In this document: positions 44,634-47,702 of the stretch, in pieces | How the letters are laid out: each line of letters begins with the position of its first letter | How positions within the stretch are numbered: position 1 is the stretch's first letter | Origin: Hyphomicrobium denitrificans ATCC 51888 | Lineage (GTDB): Bacteria; Pseudomonadota; Alphaproteobacteria; Rhizobiales; Hyphomicrobiaceae | Assembly (NCBI RefSeq): GCF_000143145.1 | Contig: NC_014313.1 | Coordinates: 2,666,001 to 2,730,000, forward strand | DNA: 64,000 nucleotides | Reading direction: 5' to 3' | The notes under the pieces: model-generated | What the model was told of the DNA's origin: nothing | Database searches by the model: none | What the model saw: the letters and a program-made list of their open reading frames with translations, nothing else | Made by a program: the position numbers and the translations under genes

Positions 44634-44708
44634 TGGTGGGCACTAGAGGGATCGAACCTCTGACCCCTACCATGTCAAGGTAGTGCTCTACCGCTGAGCT
44701 AAGTGCCC
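44634..44708 (-). tRNA. tRNA-Val (anticodon GAC)
   Basis: The minus strand folds as a full cloverleaf: acceptor GGGCACT/AGTGCCC, D arm GCTC...GAGC, anticodon stem CTACC/GGTAG with loop TTGACAT, and T arm CAGAGG-TTCGATC-CCTCT with G-U tolerance. The 3' CCA is encoded at 44634-44636. Confidence 0.96.
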
Positions 44709-45184: not shown

Positions 45185-45449
45185 GGGAACTCTGTGATGA
45201 AGCGGAGCTTGAACGTAACCAATACTGCACAGTCCGTCTGGCGCAAACTTGGCCCGAGTTTGGTAAACGTTGCATGAAATTGTGGAGAGTTGCAGCCAAG
45301 CCGCGATTCGAGAACTTCTCGGAACGCAGTGCGTTATCAGCTGCAGCATAGCCGAAGTCACGCATGGACTTCCCAGTCGCACGTTGGCAGAGTGTCGAAC
45401 CTTTCATCGTCAATTTGTCGCGGAAGCAATCGAAGGCACACGTTCCCGA

Positions 45450-46346
45450 ATGTCCGATGCCCACCTTCACAGCGTGCCGTCCGCCTTCTTTCCATCTTTC
45501 GATGTTCTTTCGCCGCGTCAGCAAACTGCGCCTTTCGTTTTTTCTTCGCCGCACTCAGGACGGCTTTATCCGCCCGAATTTCTTGCGATTTCGCGGCTCG
45601 ATCCGAAAACGCTGAGGCGATCGGAAGACTGCTTCGTCGATAAGCTGTTCGAGCCTGTCGCCGAGATGGGTGCGCCGCTGATCAGCGCGCGCTTTCCGCG
45701 CGCTTACCTCGATCTCAACCGCGAACCCTACGAGATCGATCCGGAACTCGTTGAAGACGTTCCCGCGCACGCCAACACGCAATCCGTTCGCGTCGCCGGC
45801 GGGCTCGGAACCGTGGCTCGCATCGTCGCCGACGGCGAAGATATTTATCCGAACCGGCTGAGCATCGAGAGCGTGCTGTCGCGCATCGAGCAACTCTATT
45901 TTCCGTTCCATGCCGAGCTATCGCGGCTCATTGCTCAGACCTGCGAAACGTTTGGCTATGCCGTTCTGATCGACTGTCACTCGATGCCCTCGGCAGCGAT
46001 GGCGCCAGGTGGCGCGCTCAGGCCCGACATCGTGATTGGCGACCGCTTCGGGGCTTCGTCCGATCCGCGGCTGACGCTGCTCGTGCGGGACGAATTCCAG
46101 CGGCGAGGTTTCAAGGTGCAGCTGAACCGGCCCTACGCGGGCGGGTACATCACCGAGCACCACGGCCGTCCGGCCCATGGCACGCATGCCATCCAGCTCG
46201 AGATCAATCGCGGGCTTTACATCAACGAGATGACGTTCCAGCCGAATAAAGGCTACGTCGCGCTCACTGCCGCGCTCCGGGAGATCGCTCAGCATCTCTT
46301 CGCGGAAGTGCCGGGGCTGCTCGATTTTCGCGCTGCAGCAGAGTAA
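45450..46346 (+). CDS. N-formylglutamate amidohydrolase
   Basis: 298 residues from ATG 45450 (MSDAHLHSVP); no strong ribosome site. Motifs: FVFSSPHSGRLYPPEF, FPRAYLDLNREPYEIDP, VLIDCHSMPS with metal ligands, YAGGYITEHHGRPAHGTHAIQLEINRGLY. The family hydrolyses N-formyl-L-glutamate to formate and glutamate at the end of a histidine-degradation branch, but no hut genes are nearby, so another amide substrate is possible. Confidence 0.92.
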   Translation: MSDAHLHSVPSAFFPSFDVLSPRQQTAPFVFSSPHSGRLYPPEFLAISRLDPKTLRRSEDCFVDKLFEPVAEMGAPLISARFPRAYLDLNREPYEIDPELVEDVPAHANTQSVRVAGGLGTVARIVADGEDIYPNRLSIESVLSRIEQLYFPFHAELSRLIAQTCETFGYAVLIDCHSMPSAAMAPGGALRPDIVIGDRFGASSDPRLTLLVRDEFQRRGFKVQLNRPYAGGYITEHHGRPAHGTHAIQLEINRGLYINEMTFQPNKGYVALTAALREIAQHLFAEVPGLLDFRAAAE

Positions 46347-46402
46347 GTGCCTCCGCGCGCGCATTAACCGTCCGCGCACGCTTTGGCGTACGACCGGCCA
46401 AG

Positions 46403-46480
46403 AAAAAAGGGCCGTTCAATCCGAACGGCCCAAGTCTAGGGAGGAAACGCCCAAGGAGGGCTGCGAAGCGCGAGCACAAG
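46403..46480 (-). ncRNA. mmgR / alpha-r8 (Rfam suhB motif)-like small RNA, copy 1
   Basis: Read on the minus strand: hairpin GCCC-TCCTT-GGGC (46449-46461), the unpaired conserved TTTCCTCCCTAGACTT, then terminator hairpin GGGCCGTTC/GAACGGCCC (46409-46431) with six Ts. This hairpin, CU-rich heptamer and terminator order is what I recall of the mmgR/alpha-r8 RNAs of Hyphomicrobiales. The 5' end is a guess from a typical size near 77 nt. The CCUCCC segment is anti-Shine-Dalgarno-like and could base-pair with mRNA leaders. Confidence 0.8.
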
Positions 46481-46601
46481 CTCGCATATCGCACTGCACA
46501 AAATAACGGTGCATTGCATCAACGACAATTGCGATTTATGCAGGTCTGAGAGGTGGAAAGTGCGGATCTCGCATACCTCCCCGCGGCGCACAATGCCGCA
46601 T

Positions 46602-46680
46602 AAAGAAAGGCCGTTCGTAAGAACGGCCCAAGTCTAGGGAGGAAACGCCCAAATTGGGCAGCGATTGCGATAGAAGCGTG
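46602..46680 (-). ncRNA. mmgR / alpha-r8-like small RNA, copy 2 (tandem)
   Basis: Same orientation as copy 1 and 198 bp upstream of it in the transcribed direction. Hairpin GCCC-AATTT-GGGC (46647-46659), the conserved TTTCCTCCCTAGACTT identical to copy 1, and terminator GGCCGTTC/GAACGGCC (46609-46628) followed by TTTCTTTA. The regions upstream of the two copies differ, so each probably has its own promoter. Together the copies occupy the 543-bp gap between the amidohydrolase and hisN; an AT-rich stretch at 46760-46850 is likely the hisN promoter. Confidence 0.8.
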
Positions 46681-46889
46681 TTCACACAACCGCATTACGA
46701 AGATGGTATGCTTCGGCGCCGCTCGCAATCTCCACGAGTATTGAGATAGCGCATTCACGAATAGATGTATCTAGCGCGCCACAACTTAGGTTACTTGGAT
46801 ATAACTATTTTAATATTGTACCTTGTTCTCGATAGATTTGCTCATTTTGCGCAATCACAGTTCAACAACCGCAGTTACGGGGTGAGCAC

Positions 46890-47702
46890 GTGTCCGGGTC
46901 GTTACCCGCAGCAGAATTTCAGGCCATCGTGCGCGTGGCCCATGAACTCGCCGACATTTCGGGGCCGGTGATCCTCAAGCACTTCCGCAAGGTAGTCCCT
47001 GTGGAAAACAAAGCCGCGGGCGGCGCCTTTGACCCCGTCACCAAGGCTGACAGGGGTGCGGAGAAGGCGATCGTCCAGGCGCTGGCGGCCAAAATGCCGA
47101 ACGATGGTGTCATCGGCGAGGAATTCGGCACCAAGGCCGGCACAAGCCCCTATCAGTGGGTCATCGATCCGATCGACGGGACGCGCTCGTTCATCATCGG
47201 CTCGCCACTCTGGGGCACGCTGATTGGCGTGCTTCGGGACGCAAAGCCGTTCTTCGGATTGATGGATCAGCCGTTCACCGGGGAGCGCTTCTGGTCCGGC
47301 GATCGCGCGTCCTATCACAGCGTCGGCGGCGGGCGGCCCCAGCGCCTCAAGACGCGGCCGTGCGCAAACCTCGAAGATGCCGTGCTGGCGTCGACGCATC
47401 CCGATCTCTTCGAAGGCGACATGCAGATCGGGGCGCTCAACCGGGTGAAGGCCACGGCACGGCTGACCCGATACGGCGGCGATTGTTACAATTACTGCCT
47501 GCTTGCCGCGGGGTTCATCGATCTGGTGCTCGAAACCAATCTGAAGCCCTATGACATCGTCGCGCTCATCCCGATCATCGAGCGGGCGGGCGGGCGTGTC
47601 ACGACGTGGTCGGGCGGCGATCCGGCGAGCGGCGGCGATATCATCGCGTGCGGCGACGCGCGCCTGCACGAAGCCGTGCTGACGCTGATCAACAACGCCT
47701 AG
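46890..47702 (+). CDS. hisN: Histidinol-phosphatase, inositol-monophosphatase family
   Basis: 270 residues from GTG 46890, with GGGGTGAG 5 nt upstream. Li+-sensitive phosphatase motifs: GEEFGTKAG, WVIDPIDGTRSFI, and GGDCYNYCLLAAGFIDLVLE with PYDIVALIPIIERAGG. The RYGGDCYNY block is typical of HisN rather than SuhB, so histidine synthesis is the best role; inositol monophosphatase activity is the alternative. The two small RNAs are divergent upstream, matching the Rfam motif name given for RNAs near suhB-like genes. The stop overlaps the convergent hydrolase. Confidence 0.9.
   Translation: MSGSLPAAEFQAIVRVAHELADISGPVILKHFRKVVPVENKAAGGAFDPVTKADRGAEKAIVQALAAKMPNDGVIGEEFGTKAGTSPYQWVIDPIDGTRSFIIGSPLWGTLIGVLRDAKPFFGLMDQPFTGERFWSGDRASYHSVGGGRPQRLKTRPCANLEDAVLASTHPDLFEGDMQIGALNRVKATARLTRYGGDCYNYCLLAAGFIDLVLETNLKPYDIVALIPIIERAGGRVTTWSGGDPASGGDIIACGDARLHEAVLTLINNA

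Follow-up and report, generated by a model that had tools for sequence, protein, structure and literature searches.

The minus strand of Hyphomicrobium denitrificans ATCC 51888 carries two small RNA units of the alpha-r8 family, with hisN on one side and an N-formylglutamate amidohydrolase-type gene on the other. The unit on the hisN side is named U (first copy) and the unit on the amidohydrolase side D (second copy); their features are collected in Table 1, where positions are those of the window, the whole stretch of 64 kb of DNA that was analyzed. Comparison with related genomes suggests, with a probability that we put at roughly 0.7, that U and D are an old tandem pair kept because one seed sits under two controls, with D tied to PHB status through PhaR. 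The identity of the units, the age of the pair, its RNA structure and the split between its promoters are the parts of this explanation that are read directly from sequence.

Identity and layout of the two units

An Rfam scan of the window matched RF00519 (suhB/MmgR/alpha-r8) at 46394-46468 for D (72.1 bits) and at 46593-46666 for U (61.1 bits), against a cut-off of 41, with each match covering model positions 1-77. Because the E values of the two matches over the entire 64-kb window were 6e-13 and 3.9e-10, chance is excluded. The identity of U and D as alpha-r8 RNAs is near certain, and the first-pass annotation, which had named the units mmgR/alpha-r8-like and proposed a suhB covariance search as a check, was borne out by these scores. 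In the 3.64-Mb genome, only U and D scored above the RF00519 cut-off. The best match below the cut-off (25.6 bits) was considered as a third copy and rejected, as it has no core and lies on the strand opposite an open frame rich in lysine and alanine; nine weaker matches rank below it. Neither unit was recognized as SorY (RF02651), for which the scores were 29.2 and 24.9 bits against a cut-off of 111.

The sequence features that had been described for the locus were recovered. The 16-mer TTTCCTCCCTAGACTT is present in both units on the minus strand, with a GCCC/GGGC hairpin ahead of it and a rho-independent terminator behind it; a terminator scan of 46340-46900 returned only two terminators, both on the minus strand and one at each unit. 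As claimed, the hairpin loops, terminator loops and flanks of U and D differ from each other. The placement upstream of hisN was also right, the units being divergent from hisN and convergent with the amidohydrolase-type gene. The interval of 46403 to 46680 that had been given for the pair was well placed and slightly short in extent, since the U RNA is predicted to reach 46693 and its promoter 46728.

Most species are reported to have one alpha-r8 copy beside an N-formylglutamate amidohydrolase gene (PMC12559287, citing Lagares 2016). This typical linkage is present here, though the profile match of the amidohydrolase-type gene is below the curated cut-off; the true start of this gene is probably further in than 45270. 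A tRNA-Val gene (anticodon gac) was found near the locus on the minus strand, at 44634-44708 of the window.

Table 1. Features of the tandem alpha-r8 locus (window positions)
Feature	Position	Strand	Basis and remarks
hisN, histidinol-phosphatase	46890..47702	+	TIGR02067 equivalog, 295.8 bits against a cut-off of 275.15; landmark, divergent from the units
N-formylglutamate amidohydrolase-type gene	45270..46346	+	TIGR02017, 105 bits, below the cut-off of 278.75; landmark, convergent with the units
Unit U, predicted alpha-r8 sRNA, ~92 nt from SL1 to T-run	46602..46693	-	RF00519; first copy at this place in 22/22 genus loci
U putative promoter, TTGCGA-N17-CATCTT with element TTG-N10-CGAA-N6-CAY	46702..46728	-	Conservation; second hexamer ends at 46700
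U SL1, 5' stem-loop GCGGTTGTG...CGCAATCGC, lying 5' of the hairpin modeled by Rfam	46661..46693	-	Folds, covariation
U SL2, GCCC-AATTT-GGGC, without the CCTCCTT of D	46647..46659	-	
U core TTTCCTCCCTAGACTT, putative anti-Shine-Dalgarno seed	46630..46645	-	Identical in 22/22 genus U copies
U terminator (SL3), interrupted T-run TTTCTTT	46602..46629	-	Terminator scan
Unit D, predicted alpha-r8 sRNA, ~95 nt	46403..46497	-	RF00519
D PhaR/AniA-type palindrome TGCAATGCACC	46508..46518	-	Between putative -35 TTGTCG (46523-46528) and -10 TTATTT (46501-46506)
D SL1, TGCGA..TGCGAGC-TTGT-GCTCGCG..TCGCA	46462..46493	-	Folds, covariation
D SL2, GCCC-TCCTT-GGGC, with a second anti-Shine-Dalgarno-like CCTCCTT	46449..46461	-	22/22 genus and 25/31 other-family second copies
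D core TTTCCTCCCTAGACTT	46432..46447	-	
D terminator (SL3), GGGCCGTTC...GAACGGCCC TTTTTT	46403..46431	-	Terminator scan

Age and spread of the tandem pair

RF00519 was searched in a sample of 100 genomes, made up of the organism's own genome, 21 further genomes from its genus, 38 further ones from its family and 40 from its order. Matches at E <= 0.001 were obtained in 94 of these genomes, and 89 had matches above the cut-off. The loci compared include at least one per genome for all 22 genomes of the genus and all 36 family genomes that had a match. Copies were counted as occurrences of the 16-base core, allowing at most two mismatches; all counts among relatives given here take related genomes as independent. 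Two or more adjacent copies were found in 22/22 genus genomes and in 31 of the 38 other family genomes. The first copy is strongly diverged in two of these 31 loci (L078 and L075). Among the seven remaining family genomes, five had single copies only in the loci fetched and two had no RF00519 match. The gene order of hisN, units and amidohydrolase recurs in those relatives' loci that contain both genes and a core. At the order level, 28 loci from 22 of the 40 genomes were read; by the 16-base rule no core was present in three of them (L035, L196 and L197) and two cores were present in L077, while in one order genome (G097) a distance of 293 bases separates two Rfam matches. The tandem arrangement looks like a family trait that has been lost from, or is absent in, some genera.

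To compare the copies by descent, classes were defined as first or second position, excluding L078 and third copies. Over the promoter and SL1, the nearest neighbor from another genus belonged to the same class for 51/52 second copies and 42/52 first copies, and over SL2 and the terminator this was so for 50/52 and 39/52, respectively. Since nearest neighbors across genera mostly share their class, the comparison favors a single old duplication after which the copies descended separately, although there are exceptions. The separation is visible only in the nearest-neighbor test and in the motifs described below: mean identities over the promoter and SL1 fail to separate the classes, at 0.609 for U-U, 0.665 for D-D and 0.597 for U-D between genera, and 0.615 for U-D within genomes. 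The case for an old tandem module is strong, and the earlier proposal of an old duplication in which the CU-rich segment was held fixed agrees with the tandem counts in the genus and family.

Three copies in a row were observed in seven family loci (L013, L019, L041, L056, L058, L064 and L071), and four of the seven third copies have a D-type SL2 loop. A recent further duplication or conversion is suggested by L013 and L041, where one terminator stem-loop is common to the second and third copies.

RNA structure

The Rfam suhB model begins seven bases before SL2, so that SL1, a hairpin found directly upstream of SL2 in nearly every unit compared, falls outside it. A best SL1 hairpin of -8 kcal/mol or lower was predicted for 22/22 first and 22/22 second copies in the genus, 28/31 first and 31/31 second copies in the rest of the family, 9/9 family single copies and 25/26 order-level units. 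When each unit was set against its own shuffles (8 per unit), SL1 fell below the shuffle mean in 21/22 first and 21/22 second genus copies, 30/31 first and 31/31 second other-family copies, 8/9 family single copies and 24/26 order-level units, with median energies about 3 to 10 kcal/mol under the shuffled means. Covariation within the genus was assessed with structures predicted on the same alignments and with shuffles that take the sequences as unrelated. For U, 98.2% of SL1 cells were paired compared to 90.4% in shuffles, with 11 both-side changes compared to 2.8. For D, the paired share exceeded that of shuffles only slightly (95.7% and 93.3%), with 5 both-side changes against 0.8; sliding the D structure by +1 also gave 5 both-side changes, but with 25.6% of cells paired and a covariation score of 0.040 against 0.219. 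SL1 pairs are maintained partly via G-U pairs. Since three stem-loops have already been described for MmgR (PMC7143759), SL1 is a gap in the Rfam model and not a new trait, and the model would become sharper if it were extended by this 5' stem-loop. The 5' ends of U and D given here are predicted and could lie inside SL1.

The core 10-mer UUUCCUCCCU is identical in U and D and lies between a weak hairpin and the terminator, unpaired in both consensus structures and mostly unpaired in single-sequence folds. The CCUCCUU of the D-type SL2 loop, present in most second copies (Table 1), was also found in 16/26 order-level units; among first copies it occurs in 0/22 of the genus and 1/31 of the rest of the family. 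A candidate U-specific SL1 loop motif, C[AG]CTTC, was discarded, since it is found in 18/22 genus first copies but also in 15/22 genus second copies, and in 8/31 other-family first copies. The T-run behind the U terminator is interrupted in 21/22 genus U copies, which might mean weaker termination or Hfq binding.

A PhaR-type palindrome in the D promoter

Upstream of SL1, a TTG-type -35 is followed by a palindrome of the form TGCRNYGCA and then an AT-rich -10 in D and in many order-level copies. A scan of 46340-46900 with the sigma-70 consensus returned no promoter, and the -35 and -10 assignments of both U and D were made purely by conservation. Palindromes were counted over 65 bases in core-containing loci, excluding the single copies found in G040 and G056. 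TGCRNYGCA was found before 21/22 genus second copies (1.7 expected in shuffles), 26/31 other-family second copies (2.2 expected), 17/26 order-level units (1.0 expected), 4/7 third copies and 3/3 family single copies. Before first copies, it was found in 0/22 of the genus (0.5 expected) and 2/31 of the rest of the family (0.4 expected). The relaxed form YGCRNYGCR occurs in 4/22 genus first copies against 2.5 expected, and no PhaR site was assigned to U.

In D, TGCAATGCACC together with the next base fits 11 of the 12 positions of the PhaR/AniA consensus TGCRNYGCASMA reported for B. diazoefficiens (PMC6201568). The S. meliloti PhaR motif is given as approximately YGCRNYGCR, and the mmgR promoter site is listed as efficiently PhaR-bound in vitro (PMC12542648). 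Because 17/26 order-level units have the strict palindrome, the data suggest that PhaR control of alpha-r8, known from S. meliloti, may be old in the order.

The PhaR domain (PF07879) occurs once in the genome. The single Phasin_2 gene (L234, G000 C1 3403323-3403613) is preceded by two palindromes 19 bases apart, the strict form at -103 and the relaxed form at -122 relative to its start codon; by the coordinates in PMC12542648, the two PhaR copies at S. meliloti phaP1 are 18 bases apart. There are 37 phasin-domain matches in the genus, in 21/22 genomes, and 22 of the 37 loci were taken for analysis (one per genome and two of G006), of which 21 could be scored. TGCRNYGCA was present 90 to 118 bases before the phasin start codon in all 21, and because the palindrome precedes every scored phasin gene, the PhaR motif is, judging from its placement, alive in the genus. 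Across the whole genome, the bare 12-mer shows no strong enrichment, with 72 matches compared to 50 for the reversed pattern.

We consider it unlikely that the D palindrome belongs to another regulator such as NtrC, or that the SL1 repeats are DNA operators and not RNA stems. The NtrC half-site, which we take to be TGCACC, is contained in the D palindrome. In S. meliloti, mmgR is repressed by AniA and also activated by NtrC (PMC7143759), and palindromes alone cannot tell DNA from RNA. However, the same palindrome stands before the scored genus phasin genes and fits the published PhaR consensus (PMC6201568, PMC12542648), and the use of G-U pairs in SL1 suits an RNA stem.

A separate element in the U promoter

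First copies have a different element, TTG-N10-CGAA-N6-CA[TC], which was found in 21/22 genus and 22/31 other-family first copies and is missing from the other 9/31. It is present in 0/22 genus and 0/31 other-family second copies and in 0/26 order-level units. As the element was defined on the same alignments in which it was counted, the evidence is the contrast between the classes and not the raw count. A looser form, CGAA-N3to6-CAT, also matches 1/22 genus second copies. The element was rejected as the mark of a regulon, with 3 genome matches including U itself compared to 4 for the reversed control pattern. Two promoters with different conserved elements lend support to the earlier suggestion that the duplicates respond to different signals, and it is likely that U and D are controlled differently, with PhaR acting at D only. 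No description of this promoter split in Hyphomicrobiaceae was found in the literature searched, Lagares 2016 and Ceizel Borella 2018 lying outside its scope.

If the pair were kept for dosage, the U and D RNAs would be functionally equivalent and their promoter differences would be drift. The core and the terminator stem are much alike in U and D, and redundant tandem siblings such as OmrA/OmrB do exist (PMC12559287), but we find this explanation improbable, as both promoter classes keep a fixed geometry and are conserved from genus to genus, SL2 differs consistently between the copies, and drift would not hold 21/22 and 22/31 U promoters alike. Still less plausible is a reading in which D is the sole working gene and U, auxiliary or decaying, has a weak promoter and a weak terminator (TTTCTTT) that lets transcription run on into D. 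The lower score of U (61.1 compared to 72.1 bits), its T-run, interrupted across nearly all of the genus, and the divergence or absence of first copies in some family genomes would fit decay. Yet the U core is identical throughout the genus, its SL1 covaries and its promoter element is conserved, and decay would leave neither that element nor the constraint on core and SL1.

Seed and targets

The Caulobacter siblings SisA-D have UUUCCUCCCU in common; SisA uses this 10-mer to pair with 5' UTRs and acts as a repressor of a set of mRNAs, and the SisA-D siblings are in turn sponged by CrfA (PMC12559287). The idea that the CU-rich core of U and D acts as an anti-Shine-Dalgarno seed gains support from this analogy. 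The exact seed complement AGGGAGGAAA was found at 7 places in the genome, 2 of which are the units' own cores, and the reversed control pattern at 0; GGGAGGAAA was found at 14 places compared to 2 for its control. A search for targets carrying the seed complement near start codons had been proposed, and with starts 4-40 bases from the site and frames of >40 codons, none of the 5 non-core places precedes a convincing start. One of them precedes a TTG-started frame of 162 codons, with longer open frames on the opposite strand.

Two further candidates were rejected. Phasin was dismissed as a direct target because none of its leaders passes 0.05 against its own shuffles: for 21 genus leaders, the fraction of mononucleotide shuffles pairing at least as well was 0.07-0.63. 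In 18/21 cases the leader was slightly stronger than the shuffled mean, which might hold for any ribosome-binding site. The second candidate, a cis sponge in the spacer between U and D (GGGGAGGT in the window), is not conserved in the genus alignment. The different SL2 loops are the one hint that U and D might divide targets, as had also been raised.

Proposed function of the pair

We infer transcription, Hfq dependence, PhaR action and target repression for U and D as follows. Each unit would give a trans-acting RNA of ~92-95 nt, in which the covarying SL1 at the 5' end is followed by the small SL2, then the seed UUUCCUCCCUAGACUU in single-stranded form and finally SL3 as the terminator. Pairing of this seed with Shine-Dalgarno regions would block translation, and from what is known of SisA and MmgR, Hfq presumably takes part. 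The promoter of D would be the ancestral one, its -35 and -10 separated by a PhaR/AniA operator. By analogy with the published repression and binding of S. meliloti mmgR, free PhaR may keep D repressed, with relief once PHB granules titrate this repressor. U lacks such an operator and would run on its other conserved promoter element. We see about even odds that the pair consists of a long-lived PHB-sensing copy with a PhaR operator and a PHB-blind copy with an element of its own, and that the CCUCCUU SL2 loop has been kept mainly in the PHB-sensing copy. If this is true, the pair would supply the same seed whether or not the cell is in a storage state, and the strength on targets would be partly different.

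Why bacteria keep several near-identical alpha-r8 sRNAs has been described as an open question (PMC12559287). The copies in this locus adjoin and carry one and the same seed, and three conserved features set them apart, namely the PhaR site, the element of the U promoter and the loop of SL2; this makes the question of copy retention cleanly testable.

Comparison with known systems

Multi-copy and adjacent alpha-r8 genes are already in print, and the pair is no new kind. Many genera are reported to have several copies, some of them adjacent (PMC12559287, citing Lagares 2016). The first-pass annotation had implied that duplicates are more unusual than they are: B. japonicum was reported in 2005 to have five copies and C. 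crescentus four (PMC1273637). The annotation's statement that S. meliloti mmgR is a single gene with a role in PHB was accurate according to PMC12559287 and PMC7143759, which give it as the sole alpha-r8 gene there. The H. denitrificans units resemble S. meliloti MmgR in the core 10-mer, SL2, the terminator, the three stem-loops, the PhaR site (D only) and the presence of PhaR in the genome. In contrast to MmgR, which is a sole copy of 77 nt, they are two tandem copies with a longer SL1, one of which lacks a PhaR site. With SisA-D of Caulobacter crescentus, they have in common the family, the anti-Shine-Dalgarno 10-mer, an amidohydrolase-adjacent copy and an unrelated promoter for each sibling; the four Caulobacter copies, however, are at separate places, whereas the two copies here are in tandem.

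The A. tumefaciens suhB motif, as described in 2005, is transcribed opposite a COG0483 gene with its own promoter and terminator, although the motif is stated not to be associated with specific neighbors (PMC1273637). Here too the units lie opposite a phosphatase gene, hisN, which belongs to a group related to COG0483, but they form a tandem pair, and promoter classes do not figure in the description given in PMC1273637. AbcR1/AbcR2 (alpha-r15) are likewise tandem, CU-rich sRNAs with three stem-loops and partial RF00519 homology, 114-120 nt long in S. meliloti and adjoining lsrB (PMC7143759), but it is most improbable that U and D are AbcR RNAs, as their neighbors are hisN and the amidohydrolase-type gene and not lsrB/vtlR, their full-length suhB matches are well above the cut-off in a scan that reports the best match per clan, and both contain the exact alpha-r8 10-mer. 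To these systems, the comparison across relatives adds the apparent age of the pair, a covarying SL1 outside the Rfam model and the predicted promoter split.
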